From positions 1,999,001 to 2,063,000 of the forward strand of contig NZ_AP018694.1 of the NCBI RefSeq assembly GCF_009689585.1: a stretch of 64,000 nucleotides of DNA, in the 5' to 3' direction. Positions within the stretch are counted from its first letter, which is position 1. Each line of letters opens with the position of its first letter. The notes beneath the pieces were generated by a model. The model was given only the letters and a program-made list of their open reading frames with translations, did no database searches and had not been told where the DNA came from. Below are positions 1,910-18,610 of the stretch, one piece after another. The translations under genes were made by a program, and so were the position numbers. Origin of the DNA: Aquipluma nitroreducens. Lineage in GTDB: Bacteria; Bacteroidota; Bacteroidia; Bacteroidales; Prolixibacteraceae.

Positions 1910-2809
1910 TTGGAAGTGAAGATAACTATCGAAAACCTCAACAAAGTCTATCCCAATGGCAACCATGCGCTGAAGGATGTGAATCTGGAAATTAATAACG
2001 GGATGTTCGGGCTACTCGGTCCAAACGGTGCTGGCAAATCGAGCCTCATGCGCATATTGGTTACCCTGATGCAACCTTCATCGGGAATTGTGAAAATGAA
2101 TGGCTACGACCTGACTAAAGATCGCGAACAGATTCGATCCATGCTTGGATATCTTCCTCAGGATTTCCGCTTTTTCTCGCACCTGAAAACCTACGAATTT
2201 CTGGATTATGCTGCCCGTTTGGCAGGAATGAAAAACAGCAAAGAACGCAAGCTGGCTGTCGATAAGATGCTTGAAGAAGTGGGTTTGTTTGAAGCACGCG
2301 ACCGCAAAGCCAACAACCTTTCAGGAGGTATGAAACGCCGTTTGGGAATTGCCCAGGCGCTGATTAACAATCCCAAAATCATTATTGTTGACGAACCAAC
2401 CACCGGTCTCGACCCCGAAGAACGCATCCGTTTCCGGAATTTGCTTTCAACCATTTCAACTCAGGATGTGATCATTATACTTTCAACCCACATTGTTGGC
2501 GACATCTCCAGTTCGTGTACCGACATGGCGCTACTCAATCAAGGGGGCCTGGCGTTTACCGGTTCGCCCGACGAGTTGGTAGTTCGTGCTGAGGGAAAAG
2601 TGTGGCTGATTCAGGCAACAGAAGCTGAATACCTGGAAATCAACGAAAAATATCCGGTTATCTCCAACGTCCCGAACAGCGAAGGTTGGGAAATTCAGGT
2701 AGTAGCCGATTCCATCAATGGATACAACGGACACAACATTGCTCCAAACCTGGAACATGCCTACGTTTATTTTATGGAAAGTAATTTAAATCAATGGACC
2801 GCCATCTAG
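1910..2809 (+). CDS. ABC transporter ATP-binding protein (CcmA/NatA type)
   Basis: A 299-residue ATPase with Walker A GPNGAGKSS (residues 37-45), Q-loop in GYLPQDF, signature LSGGMKRR, Walker B IIIVDEP (D161, E162), D-loop GLDPEER and switch histidine in LSTHIVGD. No ATG lies in the right place: the start is TTG 1910 or GTG 1916. It should energise the next gene product, an ABC-2 permease fused to peptidase-like and golvesin-like domains. The ATPase core is visibly related to the one fused to the second RND pump downstream: both read MFGLLGPNGAGKS, share the HI(V/I)xDISSSC stretch after the H-loop, and end with a similar tail (P-x-LE(H/D)AY). This suggests duplication within the locus. Substrate unknown. 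Confidence 0.9.
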   Translation: MEVKITIENLNKVYPNGNHALKDVNLEINNGMFGLLGPNGAGKSSLMRILVTLMQPSSGIVKMNGYDLTKDREQIRSMLGYLPQDFRFFSHLKTYEFLDYAARLAGMKNSKERKLAVDKMLEEVGLFEARDRKANNLSGGMKRRLGIAQALINNPKIIIVDEPTTGLDPEERIRFRNLLSTISTQDVIIILSTHIVGDISSSCTDMALLNQGGLAFTGSPDELVVRAEGKVWLIQATEAEYLEINEKYPVISNVPNSEGWEIQVVADSINGYNGHNIAPNLEHAYVYFMESNLNQWTAI

Positions 2810-2970: not shown

Positions 2971-5900
2971 ATGATTTCAGTTCATAACATCTCGTCCATA
3001 GCCAAATACGAAATAACCACACTTTTGCGAAGTTGGTTCTTCCGAATTTTTGCATTATTGGCCATCGTCATCTTGTTCTTCTTTAACATGGCCGTTTTAG
3101 TCATGGAAAACGGTGGAAATTGGACGTTAAAAGCCATTTCATCAATCGTTCCGTACATGAACTTACTGATGCTGAATACCGTACAGGCGATCATTGCCAT
3201 TTTTTTGGCTTCAGACTTCCTGAAGCGCGACAAAAAGCTTGATACTACTGATGTAATTTACATCCGTTCGATGTCGAACGGCGAATATGTGGCTGGAAAA
3301 ACCATCGGAAACCTCGTAGTTTTTATTATCCTGAACCTGATTGTTCTTTCCGAAGCGCTTATTTTCAACCTGATCTCAGCCGATGTGGCCGTGAACTGGC
3401 TGGCTTATGTGGAATATTTTCTGATCATTAGTTTACCCACCTTAATTTTCATCCTGGGACTTTCCTTTTTCGTAATGAGTGTACTTAAAAATCAGGCCAT
3501 TACATTCATTCTGTTGCTTGGCTATGTAGCAATTACTATTTTCTACCTCAATACCAAATACTATTTCCTGTTCGATTACATGGCTTACAGCTTGCCGTTA
3601 CTGAATTCAGATTTTATGGGATTCGGTAACCTGCACACCATCCTCGTTCACCGTGGAATGTATGCCTGTTTTGGTATGGCATTTATTTTCCTGACGGTTT
3701 CGCTCCTGAAACGATTACCACAAAGTCCTTTCAGCAACAAAGTAACACTTTTCCCGGCATTGCTGTTTTTCGTTGCCGGAGTTTGGTTGGGCAAAATGCA
3801 TGTTTCAACTTTTGTGAAAACTCAGGAGTTAAGAGAAAACATGCGCACTGTTAACGATGCCAATATGACCGAACCCCGCGTAAAAGTGGAGAGCTGCAAC
3901 ATTGATCTCAAACACGTAGGCAACAACATTGAAGTGACAGCCAAATTAAAAGTGAGCAATCCACTACCAGAAGCCATCAATCATTTTGTTTTCAGCCTGA
4001 ATCCTGGACTAAAAGTTAGTAAAATCACGTTCAACGGGCATGAGATTTCGCCCAAACGAGAGCTTCAACTGATCGAATTTTCAGATACGAAAATAGAATC
4101 CGGAGAATCTGCCGCGCTCGAATTCACTTACAGCGGAAGTCCGGATGAAGCTCAATGTTTTCTTGATGTTGACGACAAAACAATGGAAACGTCCAACAGG
4201 GTAAACATGTATAAGATCGACAAACGATCGGCCATCGTTTCTCCTGATTTTGTTTTGCTTACACGCGAGAGCAACTGGTATCCCATTGCCGGAACAGGTT
4301 TCGGTAAGCAAAGCAAACAATGGATTCAAAAGCAGTTCAGTAATTTTGACATTACTGTAACCACCAAACCTGGATTGACAGCAATTTCACAAGGAAAACC
4401 TGAGGGCAAAGACGGAACTTTCCATTTTACGAACAGCCACAATCTGTCGCAGATATCACTTGTTATCGGTGAGTACACGCAACTATTTAAGGTTATTGAT
4501 GGACTTGATTTCAACTTATACATCCATAAAGGCCACGATTACTTTTCCAAATTTTTGGAGCCCATAAAAGACACCATTCCGGATTTGATTAAAACGGCTT
4601 TAAAAGACTACGAGCGAAAGATCGACATGTATTACCCGTTTGATCGATTTACAGTAATTGAAGTTCCGACTCAATTTTATTCCTATCCACGCACATTGAT
4701 TGGCGAACGGGAGCAAATTCAGCCCGAAACCATTCTCTTTCCTGAAAAAGGATTACTGGTCGAAGAAGCCGATTTTGCCGGAAATATCAAACGCATGGAA
4801 CGTTGGGGTCGTGGCGATGATACCTCCACTCCTGAAGAGAAAAAAATAAATGCAGTGAACAACCTTTTGTCAGTCTTTACGCAGGCCGCTGCCAGGGCTG
4901 ATGTCAGCCAAAGTCAGGGGCAGTTTCAGGTTACAGAAAAAGCCAATCCCTTGTACTTCTATCCATTATTTTACAATTACGCTTATTTTATCCAATCCGA
5001 TCAGTGGCCAATTACCGATCGTATTTTCGAGGCCTACCTAAAAAAATCAACGGCTGAATCGGGTGCAATGGGATGGATGCAGAGCATGCAGGGTATGACC
5101 GAGAACGAACAGGCGAATTTAGCACTGCTCGATTTTTCGTTTGCCGAATTGCTAAACGATCCCGAAAAAATACAAATTATCGACAATGTGATCCAGTTGA
5201 AAGGGCAGACACTTTTTTCGATCATCAAACGCAAAACAGGCGATGATGCTTTCGACGATTTTATGTTTAAGTTCCTGAAAAGCATTCGGTTCAATTCAAC
5301 TACCATCGAAGACTTCAACAATCGGATTGAGCAACAATTTAATACCGACCTGCTTCCTTATATGGAAAAATGGTTCAGCAGTAAAGAACTTCCCGGGTAT
5401 TTGATTGGCAGTGTAAAAGCCGTTAATGTATTGGATGGTGACCGGCTAAAAGCGATGGTCAAATTCAAAATCACCAATTCCGAAAAAACAGAAGGAATTG
5501 TTCTGGTTCAATTCAGGCTTGGCGAAGGCGGTGGTCCTGGCCGTGGACGTTTTGGCGGAGGCGGTGCAAACAGTGAAACCGTTGATAAACTTTTGCATCT
5601 CGAAGGTGGACAAACCAAAGAAGTAAGTTACCTCCTCGATGGAACACCCCGGAATATAACCATTAACACGCTCACGTCAAGAAATATTCCGGCTGAACTT
5701 CGGCTTCCGCTGGATAACATTGAACAAGATATTAAGGCAGTTCCGTTTGAAGGCGAAAAAATTGTGGATACGCCTGTACGTATTGCAGAAGATGGCGAAT
5801 TTATTTGCGACAACGAAGATTCAACATTCCACGTCACCGTTTCGGAAGATAGAAGCCTGTTGCAAAAATTGCTCCTGAACGAGGAACAAACCAAAGATAA

Positions 5901-6312
5901 ATACATCGGGTACAACACCTGGCGAGCGCCAAGAACCTGGCGGGCAACCACCAACAGTGGCTTTTTCGGCAAGTTTATCCGGTCGGCTCACTACGTAAAA
6001 TCAGGCGACGGCAATAAAAAAGCATCATGGAATATTCCGATCAAGGGTGATGGAACTTACGAAGTGTACACCTATCTCACAAAAATGCGGCGTGGGCGGC
6101 GCGATAATCAGGATAATCCCGGTGAATACACGTACACCATCAACCACAACGGGGAAAAAGAAAATGTGGTGATTGACCTTAAAACCATTGATGACGGATG
6201 GAACAGTCTCGGTTCGTTCTATTTTTCGGGCGATACGGTTAAAATCGAATTGGGTAATAAATCGGCAGCGCAAACGGTAGTGGCAGATGCCATTAAACTG
6301 GTGAAACAATAA
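2971..6312 (+). CDS. ABC-2 permease fused to M1-peptidase-like and golvesin-like domains
   Basis: This 1113-residue protein has three parts. Residues 1-275 form about seven hydrophobic helices like an ABC-2 permease (NatB/DUF3526 style). Residues about 300-830 resemble the beta-rich and helical parts of M1 aminopeptidases, but I find no HEXXH zinc motif, so the domain is probably catalytically dead. A Gly-rich linker (GEGGGPGRGRFGGGG, from residue 851) leads through a beta region to residues about 937-1113, which look like a golvesin/xanthan-lyase C-terminal domain (GWNSLGSFYF... VVADAIKLV ending). M1-like permease fusions are known in Bacteroidota; the added golvesin-like tail is less familiar to me. 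With the preceding ATPase it should form one ABC transporter or periplasm-reaching mechanical unit. Confidence 0.8.
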   Translation: MISVHNISSIAKYEITTLLRSWFFRIFALLAIVILFFFNMAVLVMENGGNWTLKAISSIVPYMNLLMLNTVQAIIAIFLASDFLKRDKKLDTTDVIYIRSMSNGEYVAGKTIGNLVVFIILNLIVLSEALIFNLISADVAVNWLAYVEYFLIISLPTLIFILGLSFFVMSVLKNQAITFILLLGYVAITIFYLNTKYYFLFDYMAYSLPLLNSDFMGFGNLHTILVHRGMYACFGMAFIFLTVSLLKRLPQSPFSNKVTLFPALLFFVAGVWLGKMHVSTFVKTQELRENMRTVNDANMTEPRVKVESCNIDLKHVGNNIEVTAKLKVSNPLPEAINHFVFSLNPGLKVSKITFNGHEISPKRELQLIEFSDTKIESGESAALEFTYSGSPDEAQCFLDVDDKTMETSNRVNMYKIDKRSAIVSPDFVLLTRESNWYPIAGTGFGKQSKQWIQKQFSNFDITVTTKPGLTAISQGKPEGKDGTFHFTNSHNLSQISLVIGEYTQLFKVIDGLDFNLYIHKGHDYFSKFLEPIKDTIPDLIKTALKDYERKIDMYYPFDRFTVIEVPTQFYSYPRTLIGEREQIQPETILFPEKGLLVEEADFAGNIKRMERWGRGDDTSTPEEKKINAVNNLLSVFTQAAARADVSQSQGQFQVTEKANPLYFYPLFYNYAYFIQSDQWPITDRIFEAYLKKSTAESGAMGWMQSMQGMTENEQANLALLDFSFAELLNDPEKIQIIDNVIQLKGQTLFSIIKRKTGDDAFDDFMFKFLKSIRFNSTTIEDFNNRIEQQFNTDLLPYMEKWFSSKELPGYLIGSVKAVNVLDGDRLKAMVKFKITNSEKTEGIVLVQFRLGEGGGPGRGRFGGGGANSETVDKLLHLEGGQTKEVSYLLDGTPRNITINTLTSRNIPAELRLPLDNIEQDIKAVPFEGEKIVDTPVRIAEDGEFICDNEDSTFHVTVSEDRSLLQKLLLNEEQTKDKYIGYNTWRAPRTWRATTNSGFFGKFIRSAHYVKSGDGNKKASWNIPIKGDGTYEVYTYLTKMRRGRRDNQDNPGEYTYTINHNGEKENVVIDLKTIDDGWNSLGSFYFSGDTVKIELGNKSAAQTVVADAIKLVKQ

Positions 6313-6402: not shown

Positions 6403-6451
6403 AAATTTGAAATTTGGAATTAAAAAATATAAACCTCAGACGATAACCATT

Positions 6452-7939
6452 ATGCTTCTAAAAAAACTAATCAAAAGAGGACTGCTGGTGTTCATTTTTT
6501 GTCAGCTTTTGCTATCGGCAAATGCACAACAAATTATAACACTCGAAAGTGCGCTTGAAATAGCACGCAACAATAGTCCCGACATTCGACGCTCGTTGTT
6601 GAATCTAAAGAATTCTGAAGAGTCATTAAAAGCTCAGAATGCAGCGCTAAAATCAAATTTTTCGCTCAACCTGACTCCATTAAGTTACGACAAAACCCGA
6701 TCGTTCGATACGTTTCAATCGATTTGGAATACAAGCGAAACAACTCAATCGTTCGGTACATTAACCGTTTCGCAACCATTCCTTCCGACTGACGGAACAA
6801 TAAGCCTGAACAACCGGTTTGGCTGGCAGAACAGTTACAGCGAGAACGGAAGAAACCTCGCCCCAAAAACATTCAGTAATAACTTGTATCTGAGCATTGC
6901 ACAGCCTTTATTCACCTATAACAGAACCAAGCTTTCATTGAAAACGCTGGAGCTAAATCTGGAAAATGCCCAACTGAATTATTCGATGCAAAAGTTGAAC
7001 CTCGAAATGCAGGTTACCCAATTGTTTTACAATGTTTATCTGGCACAAATGAGCCTGAATATTGCACAGGATGAATTCACTAATACGCAAAAGAGTTATG
7101 AAATCACCCAAAACAAGGTAACTGCAGGAATTGCAGCTAAAGAGGAACTTTATCAGGCCGAACTGAACTTTGCCACTGCAAAATCGACCTTGGAAAATGC
7201 ACAGGTAACACTCGACAATAATAAAGATCAGTTTAAACAATACATCGGGATGGACATCATGGAAGAAATGACTGTGATGACCGATGTTGCATTTAACCCG
7301 GTAAATGTTGACGTAAAAAAAGCAATTGAATACGGTTTAAATTCCCGTATGGAACTTCGCCAGCGCCAAATTGATGTGACAAATGCTCAATTCCAATTGA
7401 TCCGGACCAATTCACTGAACGAATTCCGTGGCGATCTGAATTTATCAATCGGTATTATCGGTGTCAACGAAACTCTGCCTGATATATACAAGAATCCAAC
7501 CAACAACCCACGGGTGTCGGTTTCATTCAATGTACCGCTTTGGGATTGGGGCGAAAAGAAAGCCCGGATCAAAGCGCAGGAAGCTGTTATTGAAACTCAG
7601 GAAATTAATCAGTCGGAACAGAAAAAACAGATAACAGTTGACATCCGAAAAGTCTACCGCAGTTTACAAAATCAGACCAACCAAATTGAAATTGCTGCTC
7701 AGAACGAAAAAAATGCGCAACTAACCTACGAAATCAACCTCGAAAGGTATGCCAATGGCGATCTGACCAGTATGGATATGAACCTTTTCCAAACACAGCT
7801 TTCACAAAAGAAAATGTCGTATGCTCAGGCTTTAATCAATTATAAAGTTGAATTGCTGAACCTTAAAATTCAGTCGCTTTACGATTTTGAAAAGAACGAA
7901 GCCATTGTTCCTGAATACCTTATTCGAAAGAAAAAATAA
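6452..7939 (+). CDS. TolC-family outer-membrane efflux protein
   Basis: A 495-residue outer membrane factor of the TolC/OprM superfamily. I chose ATG 6452 rather than the in-frame TTG 6407 because it gives a clean signal peptide (MLLKKLIKRGLL...SANA, cleaved before QQ). After it come the two OEP repeats: long amphipathic coiled-coil helices (for example residues about 160-260 and 360-470, rich in Q, N, E, L with heptad spacing) and the typical start ITLESALEIARNNSPDI. It should form the trimeric outer-membrane channel used by the RND pumps and perhaps the ABC modules of this locus. The adaptor gene follows after 11 bases, so the two are in one transcript. Confidence 0.92.
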   Translation: MLLKKLIKRGLLVFIFCQLLLSANAQQIITLESALEIARNNSPDIRRSLLNLKNSEESLKAQNAALKSNFSLNLTPLSYDKTRSFDTFQSIWNTSETTQSFGTLTVSQPFLPTDGTISLNNRFGWQNSYSENGRNLAPKTFSNNLYLSIAQPLFTYNRTKLSLKTLELNLENAQLNYSMQKLNLEMQVTQLFYNVYLAQMSLNIAQDEFTNTQKSYEITQNKVTAGIAAKEELYQAELNFATAKSTLENAQVTLDNNKDQFKQYIGMDIMEEMTVMTDVAFNPVNVDVKKAIEYGLNSRMELRQRQIDVTNAQFQLIRTNSLNEFRGDLNLSIGIIGVNETLPDIYKNPTNNPRVSVSFNVPLWDWGEKKARIKAQEAVIETQEINQSEQKKQITVDIRKVYRSLQNQTNQIEIAAQNEKNAQLTYEINLERYANGDLTSMDMNLFQTQLSQKKMSYAQALINYKVELLNLKIQSLYDFEKNEAIVPEYLIRKKK

Positions 7940-7950
7940 AACAAATCCAT

Positions 7951-9009
7951 ATGAAACCTATTCACCAATTTATCGCTTTGATAGCCCTGATCGGGGCGAC
8001 CACTGCCTGCAACAACCAACCGGCCAACACAACAACTGAACTGGCGGTCCCTGTTTCGGTTTCCGACATCAAACCGAAGTCGATCGAAAAAGTGATCAAT
8101 ACCACCGGCACGTTGAATGCCACAAAAAAAACGGTATTGAATACCGAAATGGCCGGTAAATATAAACTATTGGTCAATCCGAAAACCCGCCGTCCGTTTG
8201 CTCTGGGCGATCTGGTCGAAAATGGACAGGTTATAATACAGCTCGAAGATGCCGAATATGTCAACGGAATTGGTCTTGAAAGCAAGAAGCTGAATCTCGA
8301 TATTACGGAGCAAACTATGAAAAAGCAGCAATCGCTTTTCGAAAAAGGTGGAGTTACCCAACTTGATTACCGCAATTCGGAAGTAAATTATACCAACGCC
8401 AAGGATGCTTTCGAAAGGGCAAATCTTCAATTGGCCAAGATGAGTATTCGTGCTCCGTTCAAAGGCGTAATTACCGATTTGCCTGCCACCACCAACGGTA
8501 CCCAGATTGCGACTGGAGCTGCTGTTGTTAGTTTGATGGACTATAGTATCATGACCGTTGAAGTAAACCTTCCGGAAAAATACATTAACGAAGTGGCGAT
8601 TGACCAACCGGTTCGAATTATGAATTATACCTTGCCCAACGACACTTTACAAGGAAATGTAAAAGAATTGTCGCCGGCCATCAGTACCGAAACACGCACG
8701 TTTAAAGGTGTTGTTCAGGTTGCCAATCCTGAGCTGAAACTACGTCCGGGGATGTTTGCCAAAGCCGACATTGTTTTGGCACGCAAAGACAGCGTAATTG
8801 TTATCCCCAAGGAAATCATCATTTCAAGCCAGCGTGGCAAGTCGGTTTTCATTGTCGATAATGGAACAGCAACCGAAAAACACATTACCATTGGCTACGA
8901 AACCCAGACCGAAGCAGAAATAACTTCAGGATTAAAAAAGAATGACCGACTGGTGATCAAAGGTTTTGAAACATTGAAGAATAGGTCGAAAGTAAAGATC
9001 GTGAAATAG
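7951..9009 (+). CDS. RND efflux periplasmic adaptor lipoprotein (HlyD/AcrA type)
   Basis: A 352-residue membrane fusion protein. The N-terminus (MKPIHQFIALIALIGATTAC) is a lipoprotein signal with the acylated cysteine at residue 20. It continues with a barrel-sandwich/lipoyl half, a short alpha-hairpin (SLFEKGGVTQLDYRNSEVNY, about residues 120-165), the second lipoyl half (MSIRAPFKGVI), a beta-barrel, and a membrane-proximal domain ending in LKNRSKVKIVK. It links the inner-membrane RND pump to the TolC-type channel. It is the only adaptor in the locus although two RND pumps follow, so it may serve both. The alpha-hairpin is short, as in many Bacteroidota CusB/MdtA-like adaptors. Substrate not deducible. 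Confidence 0.92.
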   Translation: MKPIHQFIALIALIGATTACNNQPANTTTELAVPVSVSDIKPKSIEKVINTTGTLNATKKTVLNTEMAGKYKLLVNPKTRRPFALGDLVENGQVIIQLEDAEYVNGIGLESKKLNLDITEQTMKKQQSLFEKGGVTQLDYRNSEVNYTNAKDAFERANLQLAKMSIRAPFKGVITDLPATTNGTQIATGAAVVSLMDYSIMTVEVNLPEKYINEVAIDQPVRIMNYTLPNDTLQGNVKELSPAISTETRTFKGVVQVANPELKLRPGMFAKADIVLARKDSVIVIPKEIIISSQRGKSVFIVDNGTATEKHITIGYETQTEAEITSGLKKNDRLVIKGFETLKNRSKVKIVK

Positions 9010-9097: not shown

Positions 9098-12000
9098 ATG
9101 AAGAAATTAACACAATTTGCTGTCAACTTTCCGGTGACCATACTGATGATGGTACTTGCCGTTGTCCTGTTGGGATACATTTCCTTCGACAAGCTGGGCA
9201 TCGACCTGTTTCCGGAGATAAACAACCCTCGTTTGTTTATCGAGCTCAAATCGGGAGAACGCCCTCCGGAAGAAATGGAAAAACAATTCGTGAAAAATCT
9301 CGAATCGTTAGCCATTCGCCAATCAGGCGTCATACAGGTTTCGTCGATTTCGAAAGTAGGAACGGCGCAAATAACCGTTGAATATGCCTGGACCAAAGAT
9401 ATGGACGAAGCTTTTCTTGATCTTCAGAAAGCAGCCAGTTCCTTTGCTCAGAATCAAACCCTCGACGAGATCAACATCACGCAACACGATCCGAATACCA
9501 CACCGGTAATGATTGTTGGTCTGACTCACGAGAGCATTACCGATATGAACGAACTCCGTAAAGTAGCCGAAAACTACATCCGGAACGAGCTGGTTCGGCT
9601 CGAAGGTGTGGCTGATGTGGAAGTTTCTGGCTCGGAAACCAATGAAGTGCTGATACAGACCGATCAATACATGCTCGATGCTTTTGGTTTGACACTCGAC
9701 GAGTTGACTACACGCATACAGAGCTTTAACCAGAGTATTTCGGGTGGTTCGATCACCGAAATGGGACTGAAATATGTGGTAAAAGGCGTTAGTTTATTGA
9801 CCGACCTGAGCGACTTCGAGAATACCATTGTTGGATACAAGTCGATTACTTCGGGAAGCACAACTGCCGAAAAAGCTCCGATATATCTGCGCGAAGTGGC
9901 TAAAATTAGTTTTGCCAATAAAGATCCTGAAAACATTGTCATGATGAATGGCAAGCGCTGTTTGGGATTGTCAATTTATAAGGAAACAAGTTTCAATACA
10001 GTAAAAGCTGTTGAAGACATTTCGAAAGCACTGGTTGACATGGGAAAAGCATTGCCTGGGTACAAGCTGACTGTTATCTCCAATCAGGGAACTTTTATCA
10101 GCAATGCCATCAGTGAAGTGGAAGATACCGCAATGATTGGCATGTTCCTGGCGATCGTGGTGCTGTTTATATTTCTGCGCCGCATTGGAACGACACTAAT
10201 TGTGAGTGTGGCTATGCCGATTTCAATCATAGCCACCTTTAACCTGATGTATTTCAATGGGCTCAGCCTGAATATTATGACCTTGGGAGGACTGGCGCTC
10301 GGTGCCGGTATGTTGGTGGACAATGCCATCGTGGTGATGGAAAATATTTTCCGGCTCCGCGAATCGGGCATGTCGGTAAAAGACGCTGCCATCGAAGGAA
10401 CTTCGCAAGTCAGCGGGGCGATAACTTCATCGACGCTTACCACCATTGTCGTTTTCCTACCCATCGTTTATTTGCACGGCGCTTCGGGCGAGCTTTTCCG
10501 CGATCAGGCATGGACAATCACTTTTTCGTTGCTTTCATCACTGGTCGTGGCCATCTTGTTGATTCCAATGATGTTCAACTATTTCTTTAAAAGCAGCCAG
10601 AAACCTACCGTTCAAAAGTCTGTCCGGATTAAGGGATATGGAAAATTTCTCGGGAATGCACTGAAACACAAATGGGCGATCATACTTCTTACTGTAGTAC
10701 TCATGGGGCTTTCTGTTTTGGTTTTGCCTTATATCGGAACCGAATTTATGCCCAAATCGGAAACCCGTCAATTTAGTATTGATTTAAAGATGCAGGAAGG
10801 AACCCGGCTTCAGCGAACTACTGCTGCCGTTGAGAATCTGGAAGGAATCATCCGCGAAGTGTTGGGCGACCATCTAGAAACGATTTATAGTCAGGTTGGT
10901 CCGTCAACCGGATTGCTTACCTCTCAGGATGCACTTTTTCAGGGTGAAAACACAGCGAGCATTAAAATTATATTGAAACCCGATAGCAAATATGGATCAA
11001 CATCGGCCATTCAGTCCATTTCGCAAGGATTGGGCGAGATGCCTGATTTGGACATCAAATATGTTCAGGATCAGACTGCATTGGGCGGTTTGATGGGAAC
11101 CGATGAAGCGCCGTTGGTGATCGAAATTCAGGGAGAAGATCTGGCCGTGATAGAAGGACTATCCAATCAGGTAAAAGCGGCCGTTCAGGGAATTCCTGAA
11201 TTGTATAACCTGGAAGCTTCGATGGAAGGTGGTTCACCCGAAGTGGAAGTGATGGTTGACCGTTTGCGTGCCGGAATTTTTAACCTGAGTGTATCCAACG
11301 TGGTTACCCAAATTCAGAATCAGTTAACCGGTAAAACAGCCGGTACTATTGAAAAAGGTGGCGAAATGCAGGACATCACGCTTCGTTTGCCCGACACCGG
11401 ATTGGCTCAATTATCGGATATGGAAATCAAGAACGGAACGCAGGTTGTTCGCGTTAACGAAATTGCGACCATTGTTGAAGGTACTTCGCCCAAGGAAATT
11501 TTCCGGAGAAACCAGGTGCGAATCGGCAAGATCACAGGTTACATGAACAAAGACATTGCCCTCGATAAAATGGTTACCAAAGTGAATCAGGCGATTGCAG
11601 GAATTCCGTTACCAACCGATTATAAAATCAAGATAACAGGTGAAGAGGAAAAACGAAAAGAATCGATGGATGCGCTCAGCTTTGCAATGTTATTGTCGAT
11701 TGTGTTGGTGTTTATGGTTATGGCTTCGCAATTCGAATCGCTGCTGCACCCATTCACCATTCTGATGACGATCCCGATGGCGGTGGTTGGTTCCGTTCTG
11801 ACCTTTTTCATTTTCAACCAAACGTTGAATATCATGGCAGTCATCGGAATCATCATGTTGGTGGGTATTGCCGTTAACAACTCGATTCTGTTGGTCGACC
11901 GGATCCTGCAACTTCAGAAAGATGGTGTTCCAAGGATCGAGGCCATTCAGCAAGCCGGTCAACAACGAATCAGGCCAATATTAATGACCACGCTGACGAC

Positions 12001-12217
12001 CTTGCTGGCTATGTTGCCACTCACGTTTGGGTTTGGCGAGAGCGCTTCGCTGCGAGCTCCAATGGCGCTGGCTGTAATTGGCGGATTACTAACCTCAACA
12101 CTGATGTCGTTAATCGTAATTCCTTGCGTGTTCGATGTTTTCGATAGATTAGCCTCCCCTAAATCCCCTCCGAAGGAGGGGACTTTAAAAGCCACAGATC
12201 CCGATGGAAGGGATTAA
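9098..12217 (+). CDS. RND-family efflux pump, inner-membrane subunit
   Basis: A 1039-residue HAE-type RND transporter, normal in length. It has TM1 at residues 9-27, a first periplasmic porter loop to about residue 335, a TM2-6 block containing the proton-relay motif GAGMLVDNAIVVMENI (D408, with N409 where AcrB has a second Asp), a second porter loop, and TM8-12 with GIAVNNSILLVD in TM10. The AcrB lysine is replaced by Asn, as in many HAE1 relatives. It should exchange protons for an amphipathic substrate and pass it to the adaptor and TolC-type channel. The last ~20 residues (SPKSPPKEGTLKATDPDGRD) are encoded by an intergenic-type repeat that has entered the 3' end, so the original stop was probably earlier. 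Confidence 0.93.
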   Translation: MKKLTQFAVNFPVTILMMVLAVVLLGYISFDKLGIDLFPEINNPRLFIELKSGERPPEEMEKQFVKNLESLAIRQSGVIQVSSISKVGTAQITVEYAWTKDMDEAFLDLQKAASSFAQNQTLDEINITQHDPNTTPVMIVGLTHESITDMNELRKVAENYIRNELVRLEGVADVEVSGSETNEVLIQTDQYMLDAFGLTLDELTTRIQSFNQSISGGSITEMGLKYVVKGVSLLTDLSDFENTIVGYKSITSGSTTAEKAPIYLREVAKISFANKDPENIVMMNGKRCLGLSIYKETSFNTVKAVEDISKALVDMGKALPGYKLTVISNQGTFISNAISEVEDTAMIGMFLAIVVLFIFLRRIGTTLIVSVAMPISIIATFNLMYFNGLSLNIMTLGGLALGAGMLVDNAIVVMENIFRLRESGMSVKDAAIEGTSQVSGAITSSTLTTIVVFLPIVYLHGASGELFRDQAWTITFSLLSSLVVAILLIPMMFNYFFKSSQKPTVQKSVRIKGYGKFLGNALKHKWAIILLTVVLMGLSVLVLPYIGTEFMPKSETRQFSIDLKMQEGTRLQRTTAAVENLEGIIREVLGDHLETIYSQVGPSTGLLTSQDALFQGENTASIKIILKPDSKYGSTSAIQSISQGLGEMPDLDIKYVQDQTALGGLMGTDEAPLVIEIQGEDLAVIEGLSNQVKAAVQGIPELYNLEASMEGGSPEVEVMVDRLRAGIFNLSVSNVVTQIQNQLTGKTAGTIEKGGEMQDITLRLPDTGLAQLSDMEIKNGTQVVRVNEIATIVEGTSPKEIFRRNQVRIGKITGYMNKDIALDKMVTKVNQAIAGIPLPTDYKIKITGEEEKRKESMDALSFAMLLSIVLVFMVMASQFESLLHPFTILMTIPMAVVGSVLTFFIFNQTLNIMAVIGIIMLVGIAVNNSILLVDRILQLQKDGVPRIEAIQQAGQQRIRPILMTTLTTLLAMLPLTFGFGESASLRAPMALAVIGGLLTSTLMSLIVIPCVFDVFDRLASPKSPPKEGTLKATDPDGRD
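12152..12190. repeat. C/G palindromic repeat inside the 3' end of the RND gene
   Basis: CTCCCCTAAATCCCCTCCGA followed by AGGAGGGGACTTT has a CCCCTCC-GAA-GGAGGGG core hairpin. It matches the family at 2919, 12266 and 59862 but here is read as coding sequence, supplying the C-terminal residues of the RND pump. Confidence 0.7.
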
Positions 12218-12311: not shown

Positions 12312-15300
12312 ATGAAATTCATCATACAGCGAAAAGTACTGATCAGCATGTTGTTTCTGGGACTAACCGTTTTGGGTTACGTCTCCTACAAACAACTGCC
12401 GGTTGAATTATTGCCCAATGCCGAACTCCCGTTTCTTTTCGTTCAGGCCGGCTCGGCTACCGATTTGGCTCCTGAATACATGGAAAATCAGGTTGTTATT
12501 CCGATCGAAGGAGCTATTGGTACACTCGAAGGCATTGAATCAATCGAGTCGAACGTGACTTCGAAGCAGGGAACCATCGTCGTTTATTACCAGAAGGGCG
12601 TCAATTTCAAATATGCATACCTGAAACTTCAGGAAAAGATCAACGAGATACAGTCGAAAATGCCAACCGGCGTGCGGGTAAATGTGGCCAAAGTCGACTT
12701 GAAACAGATGAACAGCCAGTTCATGGAATTGCAGGCACGCGGCGAAGGCGGAGTTGACCGCGTGCGAACCATCGTTGAGCAGGACATTAAACCCGATCTG
12801 GAAAATATAGATGGAATTGCTTCCGTGAATGTGTATGGTGGAAGGCAAAAGTCAATCGAGGTTATTCTCGATACAAAAGCTTGTGAAGCCTATCACATCA
12901 CTCCGGGCAAAATACGTTCGTTGCTATCGCAAAATTCGAACTCGCGCACCTATGTTGGTAATTTGAAGGAAAAGACCGTCCAGTATTTTGTGCATGTAAC
13001 CGCCGAATACACCAAGGTAGAAGATCTGGAAAACCTCGTGGTAGCCAACGGTCCTATTCTGCTAAAAGATGTTGCTGAAGTCAGGTTTGGAGTAAAAGAG
13101 GAAACTTCGTTTAGCCGTGTAAATGGTAAAGATGCGGTGACGATACTGCTGGTTAACGACTCTCAAGCCAACATGATCGAGCTCTCGAAAGCGACACGCA
13201 AAGTAGTTGCCACCCTGAACGAGAAAATGGCGACCAAAGAAATTGAGATTGCAGAGATTAGCAACTCGGCCGACCAAATGGAAAAGAACATTGACCAGAT
13301 CATGGATCTTGCGTTAGTTGGCGGAATCATGGCGATTTTTGTTCTTTGGATCTTCCTGAAGAATCTTCGGATCGTTTCATTTATCGCGTTGGCTATTCCC
13401 ATCTCCATTTTTACTTCGTTTAACCTGTTTTATGCGTTCGACATCACGCTCAACAGTTTGACACTGGTTGGTATGGCACTGGCCATCGGGATGTTGCTCG
13501 ACAATAGTGTAGTCGTTCTCGAAAATATATACCGGCTCGCAGGAAAAGGATATGCGCCGATGCAGGCCGTTGTGCAGGGGACAACCGAAGTATGGCGATC
13601 TATTCTGGCATCAACTCTCACTACCATAACCGTATTTTTACCCTTCGTTTTCTCCAAAAATTTCATGGTGGTTATGTTGGGTTACAACGTGGGCATCTCA
13701 ATCATTTCCACCCTTGTTGTTTCGTTGGCAGTGGCTCTTTTATTGGTTCCGATGGCCTCGTATGTTTTGCTTAAAAGGCAGGTTGCCCGGAATATATTCT
13801 ACGAAAAAGTAACCACCAACATGCGCATGGTTCAGGTTTATCTGGTGTTCCTGAAATCGTGTATGCGCAATCCGGCAGCCACCATCATTGGTGGAATAAT
13901 CATTTTCTTTCTGGCCGTATTCATTAGTCTGGCGGTGAGTGTCAGTTCTCTTCAGGAAGTTGCAAATAAGGAAATTCGCCTGTATGTAACCATGCCATCG
14001 GGCTCGTCGCTGGAAACCACCGATCATACCGTTCAGGAAATTGAGAAAAAACTGGACGACTTAGCCGAAAAACAAGATGTGGTTAGCAAAATAGAGGAAG
14101 AACAGGCAACAGTAACCATTAAGCTGAAAGACAAGTTTGAAGACATAGCCGACCGCACATTTGCCCAAGTTAAAACCGATATTAACGACCGGACACGCGA
14201 CATCAAAGCTTCGTCGATTTCGTTCACACAAACACAAAGCACGCGCAGTTTTCAGGGGGGCAGCCGAAACATGATGGGTAGCTTCCAGAAAATGATGGGA
14301 ATAGGAACCGACGAAGAAAAAATCGTACTCAAAGGTCAGGATTTCAAAAAATTGCAAGCTGTTGGCGAAGACCTGAAATATTTCATCGACCAACTGGAGT
14401 CGGTGCAAACGGTGAACCTGAACATTTCGGATAATCGGCCTGAGGTGCATTTGTATTTCAATCCGCTACTGATGACCGAATACAACATTTCGCTCAACAA
14501 TGTTTTGTCTGAACTGAACTCGTTTTCGAAGGAAATTGCAACTGGCATTCAGTACAAACAAGGTGTTGATGAATACGAAATCATCATCACGCAAAAAGAG
14601 CCGGTTGAAGGCGAAAAGCAGAAAACTGACAGGAACATGGATGAACTCAAAATGGTGCAGGTGAGTGATGCTTCAGGAGGGATTCACGACCTTCAGGATT
14701 TTACAAATATTGTTTATGCAAGCGGGCTTTCGGGCATTAACCGCGTGAATCAGGAAAAACAAATAGAGGTAAACTACAGTTTTGTAAGCGAAGCCAGCAG
14801 TTCGAAAGATCTTTTGGCGGCCTACCGGTACGAAATTGATGAACTGGTTGCCAACTACAATTTGCCATCGGGCGTTGCGGCTGAAGTGGTTCACGAAGAA
14901 ACCGATTTATCGGAATTTTACTTTCTGATTGGAGCTGCTATTGTTTTGATTTTCATGATTATGGCATCGGTGTTCGAATCGCTGGCAACGCCTTTTGTAC
15001 TGCTCTTTTCGATTCCACTCGCAGCCATCGGCTCGCTGATTGCGCTGATTATTACCAACAACAGTTTGCTCAGTTCAAACACGCTGATAGGCTTTTTGAT
15101 TTTGCTTGGAGTGGTGGTGAACAACGGAATCATCCTGATTGACTACACCAACATCCTGCGCAAACAAGGATTCCGCCGTTCGCGCGCGCTGATGACAGCC
15201 GGACTGTCGCGCGTTCGCCCGATCCTGATTACGACCATCACCACCATTGTAGGAATGTTTCCGCTGGCTATGGGCGATGCCGAATATGTGAGTGCCATTG

Positions 15301-17024
15301 GCGCCCCGTTTGCCATTGTTGTAATCGGAGGCTTAGCGCTGAGCACCATGCTCACGCTGGTGTTTATACCAACTTTTTATTCGGGATTGGAAAGTGCTAT
15401 CGGATGGTTTAAAGAACTATCGCTCCGAATCCGCATCGCTCAATTTGTACTGATGGCTGGGTTGTTCCTGCTCATTTACCTGAAGGTCGATTCCGGATTG
15501 TGGCAAGGACTCGATTTTATATTGGTGATTATTTTGGTTCCGGGGTCAACCTGGTTTATTCTGAACAGCTTGCGAAAAGCACAAACCAAGCTGATTGGCG
15601 ATCAGGATTCCCTCAGTATCCGTATCCAAAACCTGGTTAAAATATACGACCGCGAAAGTCAGTTCTCGCGCGAATGGGAAGCCGGCAAAAAGATTCGCCG
15701 ACGTGCCGGACTCGAAAAACAATATCATACTTTGCGCGAATTCGATTACGTCATCTGGCAATTGCCTTTGCTTGGATTTATGGGTTATTTCAGCTTTTTC
15801 TATCTGAATTCGGCTTTCTGGTCGCTTCTATTTTCGGTTGCAATCACCAACCTTGCCCTGAGCATCTGGAAGCCATTCGGCTTCTTCCTGAATTTCAAGG
15901 CTGAAAAAACCGGCAAAAAACTACCGCTGAAGAACTTCCGCTGGGTTCAAATTTTCCTTTTCTGGATTCTTCCAGCGATTGAAACATTTGTGGTTTGGAA
16001 AATCACCAAAACCATCGGATTCGTGGTTACGTTTGGCATATTGTGGTATTTGGCTCTGATTATTTCGGTAACCGCCAAGAAACTGTATCAGGAAAAAATA
16101 AACATCGACCGTATTACAGGACGCTTCGGAACCATGCGTCGCGGGTTGCTTCGAACCGTGAAAAAGATACCGGTCATTGGCAAACAACATCAGCCATTCA
16201 AAGCTTTAAATGGCGTTTCACTCGACATAACCACCGGAATGTTCGGCTTGCTTGGTCCAAATGGCGCCGGAAAATCGACCATGATGCGCATCATTTGCGG
16301 TATTCTGGAACAGAGCTACGGAAAAATATGGATCAACGGCATCGATACGCAGGAAAAACGCGAAGAACTTCAGGGATTGATTGGTTACCTGCCCCAGGAA
16401 TTTGGAACCTATGAAAACATGCCTGCCGAAGAATTTCTCGACTATCAGGCTATCCTGAAAGGCCTAACCGATAAGCAACAGCGCGAAGAACGCATTGAAT
16501 ATGTGCTGAAAGCCGTTCACATGTGGGAAAAACGCGGCGACAAAATCGGCTCCTTCTCCGGAGGGATGAAACAGCGAATTGGTATTGCGCAAATATTGTT
16601 GCATTTGCCTAAAATCATGGTTGTTGACGAACCGACAGCTGGGCTCGATCCACGCGAACGCATCCGCTTCCGCAACTTGCTGGTTGAATTGAGCCGCGAA
16701 CGTATTGTAATCTTCTCAACTCACATCATCGAAGATATTTCGAGCTCGTGTAACCAGGTGGCTGTAATCAACCGCGGTCGTGTAAAATACCACGGAACGC
16801 CAATGGACATGGTACATCTGGCCAAAGACATGGTTTGGCAATACGATATTTCGGTTGAGGAATTCGATCAAATGGAAAACAAACAATTGGTTACCCACCA
16901 CATGCGGCAGGGCGACCTGATCAGGGTACGTTTCCTCTCGAAGAAAAAACCGAGCGAAGATGCAGTGCCGGTTAATCCGATTTTGGAAGATGCTTATTTG
17001 TGTCTGATTAAAGATTTGAAATGA
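12312..17024 (+). CDS. RND pump fused to ABC ATPase with inserted membrane helices
   Basis: One uninterrupted 1570-codon frame. Residues 1-1035 are a full RND transporter: TM1 at 7-24, TM4 motif AIGMLLDNSVVVLENI with D397, TM10 motif GVVVNNGIILID, and two porter loops. Residues 1037-1085 add two helices. Residues 1103-1113 (IRIQNLVKIYD) look like the first strand of an ABC ATPase. Four more helices follow between about 1140 and 1265. The ATPase then continues from FKALNGVSLDI (1296): Walker A GPNGAGKST (1315-1323), signature SFSGGMKQR (1414-1422), Walker B with D1439/E1440, switch H1471. The ATPase core resembles the separate ATPase at 1910-2809. The next gene is an ABC-2 permease, the likely partner of the fused ATPase. 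A proton-driven and an ATP-driven exporter joined in one chain is very unusual. The joint lies in conserved-looking sequence with no stop or frameshift. Confidence 0.9.
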   Translation: MKFIIQRKVLISMLFLGLTVLGYVSYKQLPVELLPNAELPFLFVQAGSATDLAPEYMENQVVIPIEGAIGTLEGIESIESNVTSKQGTIVVYYQKGVNFKYAYLKLQEKINEIQSKMPTGVRVNVAKVDLKQMNSQFMELQARGEGGVDRVRTIVEQDIKPDLENIDGIASVNVYGGRQKSIEVILDTKACEAYHITPGKIRSLLSQNSNSRTYVGNLKEKTVQYFVHVTAEYTKVEDLENLVVANGPILLKDVAEVRFGVKEETSFSRVNGKDAVTILLVNDSQANMIELSKATRKVVATLNEKMATKEIEIAEISNSADQMEKNIDQIMDLALVGGIMAIFVLWIFLKNLRIVSFIALAIPISIFTSFNLFYAFDITLNSLTLVGMALAIGMLLDNSVVVLENIYRLAGKGYAPMQAVVQGTTEVWRSILASTLTTITVFLPFVFSKNFMVVMLGYNVGISIISTLVVSLAVALLLVPMASYVLLKRQVARNIFYEKVTTNMRMVQVYLVFLKSCMRNPAATIIGGIIIFFLAVFISLAVSVSSLQEVANKEIRLYVTMPSGSSLETTDHTVQEIEKKLDDLAEKQDVVSKIEEEQATVTIKLKDKFEDIADRTFAQVKTDINDRTRDIKASSISFTQTQSTRSFQGGSRNMMGSFQKMMGIGTDEEKIVLKGQDFKKLQAVGEDLKYFIDQLESVQTVNLNISDNRPEVHLYFNPLLMTEYNISLNNVLSELNSFSKEIATGIQYKQGVDEYEIIITQKEPVEGEKQKTDRNMDELKMVQVSDASGGIHDLQDFTNIVYASGLSGINRVNQEKQIEVNYSFVSEASSSKDLLAAYRYEIDELVANYNLPSGVAAEVVHEETDLSEFYFLIGAAIVLIFMIMASVFESLATPFVLLFSIPLAAIGSLIALIITNNSLLSSNTLIGFLILLGVVVNNGIILIDYTNILRKQGFRRSRALMTAGLSRVRPILITTITTIVGMFPLAMGDAEYVSAIGAPFAIVVIGGLALSTMLTLVFIPTFYSGLESAIGWFKELSLRIRIAQFVLMAGLFLLIYLKVDSGLWQGLDFILVIILVPGSTWFILNSLRKAQTKLIGDQDSLSIRIQNLVKIYDRESQFSREWEAGKKIRRRAGLEKQYHTLREFDYVIWQLPLLGFMGYFSFFYLNSAFWSLLFSVAITNLALSIWKPFGFFLNFKAEKTGKKLPLKNFRWVQIFLFWILPAIETFVVWKITKTIGFVVTFGILWYLALIISVTAKKLYQEKINIDRITGRFGTMRRGLLRTVKKIPVIGKQHQPFKALNGVSLDITTGMFGLLGPNGAGKSTMMRIICGILEQSYGKIWINGIDTQEKREELQGLIGYLPQEFGTYENMPAEEFLDYQAILKGLTDKQQREERIEYVLKAVHMWEKRGDKIGSFSGGMKQRIGIAQILLHLPKIMVVDEPTAGLDPRERIRFRNLLVELSRERIVIFSTHIIEDISSSCNQVAVINRGRVKYHGTPMDMVHLAKDMVWQYDISVEEFDQMENKQLVTHHMRQGDLIRVRFLSKKKPSEDAVPVNPILEDAYLCLIKDLK

Positions 17025-17130: not shown

Positions 17131-17850
17131 ATGGGATCAGCTATAAGTGCAGCCAATGTTTGGACTTTGCTCCTGAAATTGGTGAAATACAATATGAAAG
17201 TCATTTTTGGCAACCGGTTTATCTGGTTTGTGGTGGCAGCCATTTCTTTCTACTTTTTTATCGCCATCACCAACATATACGACAATGGCACGCTTGACGA
17301 AGGATTCATTTTTGATTTACAGATTATGCCGGGCATCCTGCTTATTTTCTATCCGATGACTTTCGGTATTCAAAACGATCTGGATGCCGGAATCCTTGAA
17401 ATCCTATTTGGCATTCCCGATTATCGCTATAAAGTATGGTTGGTAAGGCTGGTGCTGGTTTTTATGTTGGTTTTCCTGATGATGATTGGCCTGACCGTGA
17501 TGAGCTATTACCTGTTGGCGCCTGTGAGTGTTTTTGAGTTGACCTGGCATGTGATGTTCCCCATCTATTTCCTCGGATCACTGGCCTTCCTGTTTTCAAC
17601 GATCATCAAAAATGGTAACGGAACCGCTGTTGTCATGGTCATCATTGGGGTTGGACTGTTGATCATGTCCGGAATTTTGGAACGAACCATGTGGAACATT
17701 TTCCTGAACCCGTTTGAAATTCCGAACCGGCTCAACGAAATGGTGTGGCAGGAAACAACCATGAAGAATCGCATTTTTCTGGCTGTTGGCACACTGCTCT
17801 TCGTGCTCTACGGACTGTTTAATTTACAGAAAAGGGAGAAGTTTATTTAA
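17131..17850 (+). CDS. ABC-2 type permease
   Basis: A 239-residue integral membrane protein with six hydrophobic segments (about residues 28-46, 67-86, 108-130, 138-160, 168-186 and 213-229) and little else. This matches the ABC-2/NatB-type permease size and pattern, including the conserved-looking QNDLDAGILEILFGIPDYRY cytoplasmic stretch that resembles the coupling-helix region. It is the last gene of the export locus, directly after the RND-ABC fusion, so the fused ATPase most likely drives this permease. Unlike the other permease of the locus it has no large periplasmic domain. Substrate unknown. Confidence 0.82.
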   Translation: MGSAISAANVWTLLLKLVKYNMKVIFGNRFIWFVVAAISFYFFIAITNIYDNGTLDEGFIFDLQIMPGILLIFYPMTFGIQNDLDAGILEILFGIPDYRYKVWLVRLVLVFMLVFLMMIGLTVMSYYLLAPVSVFELTWHVMFPIYFLGSLAFLFSTIIKNGNGTAVVMVIIGVGLLIMSGILERTMWNIFLNPFEIPNRLNEMVWQETTMKNRIFLAVGTLLFVLYGLFNLQKREKFI

Positions 17851-18019: not shown

Positions 18020-18610
18020 ATGATGCTCAAAAAGATCGTTCTTATTACAACGTGTATTCTGCTGGCTTTGGTCACTTTCTCACAGACAAAAAACAGAGTA
18101 TCAATTTTCTATTCACCTGCCAGTAATGGATTAATAATTCCGGAGGACTTGGATGGCGATATGGGTTATTCAGGGAAAGGGGCAAATTTGTACGAATTGA
18201 GATATTCAAGACAAATTAACAGGTTCTTTTCCATAGAAACAGGTCTGGAATATTCATTTAATAAAATTGAAAAAGATTATTTCCCTGATGGAATTATGCA
18301 CTATAAAGAATCGAATATAAAGATGCTCTCAATTCCAATTTATGGAGACATAACCTTTTGGAAGTATTTCTTTGTTAATGCAGGTCCAACAATCGACTTT
18401 GAACTGCATCATACGGAATCAGAATCAACTTACAACCAATCGGGGATTGGATTTGGGCTCGGAATAGGCGGACGCTATACCCTGAAAAACTTCACCATCA
18501 GTTTAAATCCGTTTTACCAGAAACACTTGATACTTCGGAGTAAGAAAGGAGCATATCATGAAAATTTATATGAAGATGGAATTAAACTGGGACTAGGATA
18601 TAATTTTTAG
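18020..18610 (+). CDS. Small outer-membrane beta-barrel protein
   Basis: A 196-residue protein with a signal peptide (MMLKKIVLITTCILLALVTFSQ) and alternating beta-strand character throughout, ending in GIKLGLGYNF. The terminal aromatic residue is the usual C-terminal signature of outer-membrane barrels. Size and pattern fit an eight-stranded OmpW/PorT-like barrel ('outer membrane beta-barrel protein', PF13568 type). It has its own promoter-like box and a strong terminator just after its stop, so it is probably monocistronic. The second ATG (18023) is an equally good start. Function unknown. Confidence 0.75.
   Translation: MMLKKIVLITTCILLALVTFSQTKNRVSIFYSPASNGLIIPEDLDGDMGYSGKGANLYELRYSRQINRFFSIETGLEYSFNKIEKDYFPDGIMHYKESNIKMLSIPIYGDITFWKYFFVNAGPTIDFELHHTESESTYNQSGIGFGLGIGGRYTLKNFTISLNPFYQKHLILRSKKGAYHENLYEDGIKLGLGYNF

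Follow-up and report, generated by a model that had tools for sequence, protein, structure and literature searches.

An RND permease and an interrupted ABC ATPase on one conserved chain in a seven-gene cassette of Aquipluma nitroreducens and its family

We analysed a 64,000-nucleotide stretch of the Aquipluma nitroreducens chromosome (contig NZ_AP018694.1, positions 1,999,001 to 2,063,000; here called the window), which is part of a single-contig genome of 5.71 Mb. Between window positions 1910 and 17850 lies a cassette of seven genes that encode, in order, an ATP-binding cassette (ABC) ATPase (ABCu), an ABC-2 permease with M1-peptidase-like and Golvesin regions (M1ABC2), a TolC-type channel, a periplasmic adaptor, a resistance-nodulation-division (RND) permease (RND1), a protein in which an RND permease and an ABC ATPase share one chain (the fusion), and an ABC-2-like permease (PERM) (Table 1). 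An initial annotation had singled out the fusion as an RND transporter and an ABC ATPase in one open frame, and both its translation and two Pfam domains bear this out: ACR_tran covers residues 2–1024 with 557.5 bits, including both periplasmic loops, and ABC_tran is matched over its full length (1–137 of 137, 97.4 bits) by residues 1299–1443. The RND part (residues 1–1027) and the ATPase are joined by a membrane linker of 260 residues. The ATPase motifs are the Walker A sequence GPNGAGKST (1315–1323), a signature ending with FSGGMKQR at residue 1422, D1439 and E1440 within IMVVDEP, and H1471 within STHIIE; these, and D397 of the RND part, lie where that annotation had placed them. Its account was incomplete, having missed the second ATPase and ABC-2 permease that open the cassette, the separate RND permease next to the fusion, and the split in the fused ATPase described below.

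Table 1. Cassette genes and segments of the fusion, in window coordinates.
Feature	Position	Strand	Description
ABCu, stand-alone ABC ATPase	1910..2809	+	Cassette gene 1; Pfam ABC_tran 1.5e-33
M1ABC2	2971..6312	+	1113 residues; N-terminal ABC-2 membrane domain, degenerate M1-peptidase-like region, Golvesin_C
TolC-type outer-membrane channel	6407..7939	+	Pfam OEP 2.9e-40
RND-type periplasmic adaptor	7951..9009	+	NCBIfam RND_mfp 191 bits, cut-off 94.9
RND1, separate RND permease	9098..12217	+	1039 aa; ACR_tran 703 bits
RND-ABC fusion	12312..17024	+	1570 aa, single ATG-initiated frame
RND permease part of fusion	12312..15392	+	Residues 1–1027; ACR_tran profile 3–1018 of 1021
Extra transmembrane (TM) helices TM13 and TM14	15423..15584	+	Residues ~1038–1091; predicted from AlphaFold2 (helices 10–30 and 34–63 of the 1029–1570 model) and hydropathy
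Probable first ATPase strand and A-loop Tyr	15618..15647	+	Residues 1103–1112, IRIQNLVKIY; profile match, predicted strand
Membrane insert, four predicted helical spans	15732..16091	+	Residues ~1141–1260; AlphaFold2; K/R-rich flanking loops
Remaining ABC ATPase	16197..17021	+	Residues 1296–1570; Walker A, signature, Walker B, H-loop
PERM, six-helix ABC-2-like permease	17131..17850	+	Constant neighbour of the fusion; AlphaFold2 pLDDT (predicted local distance difference test) 80.9

The fusion is genuine and family-wide. A search of named genome contigs with a profile of the linker (A1) returned at least 331 relatives, and the best 80 of these were kept as named loci. A single frame crosses fusion residues 1000–1330 in 77 of the 80, and the other three begin at a contig end; the initial annotation had considered a missed stop or frameshift between residues 1035 and 1300, and none breaks that stretch in these 77 loci. 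It had also raised the possibility that homologues are always two separate genes, and no such relative was seen in the loci examined. In 68 of the named loci the frame has at least 1500 residues and contains RND part, linker and ATPase, while eight are cut by contig ends and four are interrupted (near residues 324, 1437, 354 and 117; the third of these, L119, lies on a contig that is itself short), a single frame in each of the four still containing RND part, linker and ATPase. The rarity of the design, and a few metagenome copies with broken frames, could suggest that assembly or a frame error has joined two neighbouring genes, but the one-frame crossing in 77 loci rules this out, and the same fusion is present in named isolates and as open frames of 1579–1624 aa in other single-contig genomes, so that we regard the chance of an artefact as negligible. 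Isolates carrying it belong to Sunxiuqinia, Mangrovibacterium, Gaoshiqia, Prolixibacter, Draconibacterium, Maribellus, Tangfeifania and Puteibacter; most of the nearest named relatives are Prolixibacteraceae or Bacteroidota assembled from metagenomes.

Within the Prolixibacteraceae (order Marinilabiliales, class Bacteroidia) the linker is matched in 126 of 140 genomes, or 98 of 103 when only good-quality genomes are counted, and all four genomes of genus g12 lack it. The corresponding figures are 52 of 393 for a sample of the order, own-family members included, 6 of 395 for a sample of the phylum, own genome included, and 1 of 197 for another class of the phylum, and the fusion is thus a family-wide but otherwise scattered trait. 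The named loci overlap in species with the genomes behind the family search, the second set of 39 loci and the M1ABC2 comparison described below, and counts from the former must not be summed with those from the latter. The four most divergent members of the order have open frames of 1515–1640 aa. Frames shorter than 1500 aa account for 13 of the 128 match rows of the family search, and there are several further rows with shorter open frames in the order sample, contig ends not having been checked row by row in either set. No match to the linker was found in 72,556 plasmid records at E≤1e-5. The same cassette, with linker identities of 48–49%, is present on two contigs labelled candidate division KSB1 and Chlorobiota (L097 and L134), which may be mis-binned Bacteroidota or transfers. 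Two assemblies have two linker matches each (G015 on C14 and C84, G976 on C6 and C7) and probably carry two copies of the fusion.

The initial annotation described a complete ABC ATPase following the RND transporter. The catalytic motifs are indeed present, but the two domains do not simply succeed one another: the ATPase starts near residue 1103 and is split by a membrane insert. After the RND part there are two helices (~1038–1058 and ~1062–1091), the conserved stretch 1103–1112, a Lys/Arg-rich stretch, four helical spans (~1141–1260), a second Lys/Arg-rich stretch that includes IPVIGK, and then FKALNGVSL, with which the second strand begins, ahead of Walker A. The 1103–1112 stretch resembles the segment of an ABC ATPase that forms its first strand and A-loop. 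A ten-position A-loop profile, built from 18 of 21 ten-residue strings of the same genome (two out of register and one duplicate were dropped), scores best at this position in 23 of 23 fusion linkers of 245–261 residues (24 rows with one short row left out), and at most one of 200 shuffles (0 or 1) scored as well. An AlphaFold2 model of residues 1029–1570 (pLDDT 81.3, predicted template modelling score (pTM) 0.62) places a strand at 1102–1112 and every other strand in the ATPase from residue 1296 on, so that the first would be expected to pair with those of the ATPase. The 50 Foldseek matches shown for this model are ATPases and ABC transporters. Between the A-loop Tyr at 1112 and the strand at 1296 there are 183 residues with four predicted membrane helices, and the fold does not appear to be contiguous from first strand to Walker A. 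Together, the sequence and the model indicate that a membrane segment breaks into the fused ATPase after the A-loop.

In the linker, Lys and Arg are abundant in the presumed cytoplasmic loops and the periplasmic loops are short, consistent with a topology in which the twelve RND helices, the next two and the four of the insert would make 18, with the ATPase inside the cell. In the window copy no Pfam family matches the membrane insert above its cut-off, and the 23 rows scanned gave only scattered weak matches (best E 0.0023). The fused ATPase itself is well conserved: Walker A (GPNGAGK followed by S or T) is present in 24 of 24 aligned rows and DEPTAGLDP with the H-loop in 23 of 24, a contig end truncating the one exception. 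Since the insert leaves the ATPase just past the A-loop, it could report on or control nucleotide binding, and the fused ATPase might then be a regulator and not a motor, sensing ATP or the state of the membrane through the inserted helices and gating the RND pump. We consider this improbable, in that catalytic Glu, H-loop and signature are all retained in the 23 aligned rows that cover them (23/23), and two ABC-2-like permeases are encoded alongside, as for a transporter.

The proton relay of the RND part is only partly of the AcrB type, in which it consists of Asp-Asp, Lys and Arg. Among 29 fusion rows (28 distinct sequences) the TM4 Asp (D397, within LLDNSVVV) and the TM11 Arg are retained throughout, but the residue after D397 is Asn (27 rows) or Thr (2 rows) and the TM10 Lys position is Asn in all 29, so that two of the four AcrB-type residues are replaced. 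RND1 rows covering the relay sites show the same Asp-Asn pattern and no Lys (these rows include one with a gap at TM4 and a few fusion fragments misfiled as RND1), whereas a motif scan shows that three other RNDs of the genome, L001, L003 and L006, keep Asp-Asp and Lys; the scan did not find the TM4 motif in L002, L004, L005 and L008. These replacements could mean that the RND part has lost its proton drive and become an ATP-driven or passive conduit, with the ABC part supplying the energy. The invariant TM4 Asp and TM11 Arg argue against such a loss, as does the fact that RND proteins with other relay residues, for example SecDF, can be proton-driven, and we think it quite improbable. The label of proton pump given in the initial annotation is therefore likely, D397 being present, but not secure, the relay being AcrB-like in part only.

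Counting only named loci with room for the gene in question, PERM lies downstream of the fusion in 72 of 72, RND1 adjoins it in 66 of 67, the adaptor is near it in 62 of 63, and TolC is upstream in 61 of 61. No PERM was seen without a fusion: the four of 296 phylum genomes that have PERM all have the fusion linker. One metagenome-assembled genome (L108) has the fusion and PERM without RND1 and the adaptor beside them, its upstream genes being different and mostly on the opposite strand, an arrangement that suggests that the pair is the core of the system. A second set of 39 loci, several of which extend further upstream, was read for ABCu: all 16 loci with enough upstream sequence to hold the gene have an ATPase of this type, in three of them truncated by the locus end. 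These 16 include loci from another order of the class (L209 and L210) and from another class (L211 and L212), and the seven-gene order is kept across families, orders and classes.

M1ABC2 follows the same distribution. Its presence or absence agrees with that of the fusion in 99 of 101 relatives (61 with both, 38 with neither, one with each alone), as counted by reading matches with P0001 at roughly 47% identity and above, with contig-end fragments scored as present; the underlying search scored the best candidates per genome without listing all matches. The two disagreements come from incomplete assemblies, G058 (80%) and G071 (61%). The linker was not found in G033 by either the order or the family search, nor in G041, G052 and G058 by the family search.

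Upstream of ABCu, the frames of different loci do not resemble one another in the 14 sources compared, the window among them, of which 13 have at least 180 bases there and most offer less than 1.2 kb, and the cassette therefore looks self-contained. In the window itself a 70-residue frame resembling a helix-turn-helix regulator lies at 926–1138 on the minus strand, divergent from the cassette, and is followed on the same strand by a frame that by eye appears to encode a membrane protein, up to about 1580; none of the other loci compared showed a frame similar to the regulator-like one ahead of its cassette. Downstream, at 18020–18610, there is a beta-barrel-like outer-membrane protein, which is probably not part of the cassette, since it was detected in just three of the 80 named loci (L063, L071 and L084).

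Several cassette components occur in twos. ABCu and the fused ATPase both carry canonical motifs and are 41% identical over 271 residues, including the extended C-terminal part. They are each other's best matches among the own-genome ATPases compared, at 224 bits against 132 and 143 for the next; of 47 ABC_tran places in the genome 30 had loci, two of them the pair itself, and from the other 28 (of 45 other places) 24 frames passed the motif filter and were compared.

M1ABC2 and PERM each resemble ABC-2 permeases, to judge from sequence and models. The N-terminal domain of M1ABC2 gives a match to ABC2_membrane_2 (E≤1, best 1.7e-8) in 15 of 18 relatives, and the remainder of the protein matches Golvesin_C (2.1e-17) and Peptidase_M1 (9.8e-5, below its cut-off). 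HExxH and GxMEN, the motifs of an active M1 aminopeptidase, are absent from the window copy and from 18 of 18 relatives, so that the M1/Golvesin part, which would be located in the periplasm, probably has a role in binding or in structure. M1ABC2 has a single match within its own genome, and a single-sequence search gave no homologue of solved structure at E≤0.1. PERM is modelled with six long helices and its best Foldseek matches are PmtCD, NosY, ABCG2 and CcmB, with probabilities near 1 and E-values of 0.02 or worse. At E≤10, Pfam ABC2_membrane_3 is matched in 14 of 61 PERM relatives (best 5.1e-5) and Acyl_transf_3 in 20 of 61 (best 7.9e-4). With regard to a complete ABC-2 set, the two ATPases are clear, while PERM depends on a fold match of weak E-value and on mixed Pfam matches. 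Homology of PERM to either the membrane insert or M1ABC2 was considered and rejected, there being no significant match by hhalign.

RND1 shares 27% identity with the fused RND, and its best own-genome match is a different RND, at 372 bits compared with 316 for the fusion, so that a recent duplication of the MdtB/MdtC kind is unsupported.

We propose, with a probability of a little under 0.6, that the seven genes together specify a single hybrid trans-envelope exporter, made up of an ABC-2 heterodimer tethered to an RND trimer that is served by the adaptor and TolC. The proposal draws directly on gene content, gene order, co-occurrence, the fused frame and the intact ATPase motifs. The fused ATPase would pair with ABCu as a heterodimer beneath two ABC-2 membrane proteins, PERM and M1ABC2, to make a complete ABC-2 transporter, and the six extra helices would anchor this transporter covalently to a trimer of RND1 and the fusion. 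The ABC part would deliver a substrate from the cytoplasm or inner membrane to the RND/adaptor/TolC conduit or, alternatively, would use the M1/Golvesin part for mechanical work in the periplasm before handing over to the same conduit, which in either case would move the substrate out. One chain holding both transporters adjacent could synchronise their cycles, and if two of the chains in the trimer were fused ones, two ATPases would be present. The suggestion in the initial annotation that an ABC exporter might be tethered to a tripartite conduit fits well with a family-wide fusion that stands beside adaptor, TolC and a permease present in every locus with room; the coupling of proton and ATP energy that it also suggested may occur, though the proton relay is only partly AcrB-like.

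A number of observations weigh against a single hybrid machine. The fold match of PERM is weak by E-value (0.02), and its relatives match an acyltransferase family, weakly, more often than an ABC-2 family (20 versus 14 of 61); profiles of PERM and M1ABC2, which would form the two halves of the ABC-2 transporter, do not match significantly (hhalign probability 0.24%). A recent duplication giving rise to the two RND permeases is not supported, and L108 has its fusion and PERM apart from RND1 and the adaptor. The intergenic gaps within the cassette, 11–161 bases, do not prove a single transcript, and the model of residues 1029–1570 has a pTM of just 0.62.

An alternative explanation is that the cassette encodes two machines that are merely tied together, with ABCu serving M1ABC2 in a homodimeric complex and the fused ATPase serving PERM, and with the fusion fixing place and stoichiometry without energetic coupling. 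The fusion has its tightest linkage with PERM (72/72), the two stand apart from RND1 and the adaptor in L108, and the canonical motifs in both ATPases mean that each could form a symmetric dimer. Against this, ABCu and M1ABC2 are hardly ever missing where the fusion is present, and each of the two ATPases has the other as its top match among those compared, which is what heterodimer partners would show; we consider the arrangement of two machines unlikely.

The hybrid exporter can also be taken a step further, although we do so tentatively and with some doubt. RND trimer and ABC-2 ATPase dimer might be mechanically one machine, and hence a fifth kind of tripartite engine: ATP-driven closure of the split ATPase would be passed through the six extra helices to the RND cycle, the membrane insert emerging beside the nucleotide site, and ATP and proton force would drive one transport event.

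Several known systems share parts of this design. MdtABC-TolC of Escherichia coli likewise has two different RND permeases (MdtB2C) beside one adaptor, and MdtB is the best solved-structure match by sequence of both RND1 and the fusion, being the closest solved chain to the RND part of the latter. MdtABC is not known to include an ABC ATPase, extra helices or ABC-2 permeases. In addition, neither cassette protein reaches the NCBIfam cut-offs for MdtB and MdtC, with scores of 251.8 of 1584 and 278.1 of 1774 for the fusion and 373.6 of 1584 and 416.9 of 1774 for RND1. The B2C stoichiometry is described in the available part of PMC4462101 and may serve, by analogy, as a precedent for heterotrimeric RND pumps. 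MacAB-TolC resembles the cassette in combining an inner-membrane ABC transporter, powered by ATP, with an adaptor and TolC, MacB having an N-terminal ATPase and four helices according to the part of PMC5985334 available. It differs in that the membrane proteins of the cassette are ABC-2-like and that an RND permease is covalently attached, and neither a MacB nor an FtsX family is among the Pfam matches shown for the operon proteins.

The best fold matches of PERM, at weak E-values, are to the ABC-2-type systems NosDFY and PmtCD. NosFY couples ATP hydrolysis to a periplasmic partner, and M1ABC2 might, by analogy, act as such a partner; the ATPases of NosDFY and PmtCD are contiguous and are not known to be fused to another transporter. 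The fused ATPase is closest to ATPases of the GldA, DrrA and ABCA type (best NCBIfam match GldA with 184 bits; solved-structure matches ABCA1, ABCA4 and ABCA7), but it falls far below the GldA cut-off of 402.6 bits and its fold is interrupted by the membrane insert.

RND-TolC fusions, of which the same genome appears to have at least one, are also C-terminal additions to an RND permease, though what they add is an outer-membrane factor and not an energy-providing domain. A 1485-residue RND permease at 2108476–2112933 of the chromosome (L009:8477–12934) has a C-terminus that reads by eye as a TolC-type factor; this long frame, found near 2108500, was considered as a second RND-ABC fusion and rejected, since its translation ends TolC-like. 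Two other long RND frames of the genome (1463 and 1509 aa, L002 and L005) may be RND-TolC fusions too. At 4764983–4766679 there are RND fragments in four short frames, two with internal TGA stops, in what looks like a decayed RND gene.

No description of an RND-ABC single chain was found in the literature searched, subscription papers and preprints being outside its scope, and none is given in the available parts of PMC8277102, PMC4462101, PMC5985334, PMC10872679 and PMC4338810. By its parts, the fusion belongs to the RND and ABC superfamilies. The part of PMC5985334 available describes tripartite mechanotransmission and four classes of energising transporter, each pump having one class of inner-membrane engine, namely RND, major facilitator superfamily (MFS) or one of two ABC types; as a machine, the cassette fits none of the four classes described there. 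The design appears to be new and is built of known parts, although a prior description may exist beyond the literature searched.

An RND pump and an ABC ATPase on one conserved chain, with the ATPase fold interrupted by membrane helices, would break the division into one engine per pump set out in the available part of PMC5985334, and the cassette would give a natural system for testing how two energy sources couple. Because the fusion is near-universal in one environmental family of Bacteroidota that includes cultured genera, such experiments are feasible.

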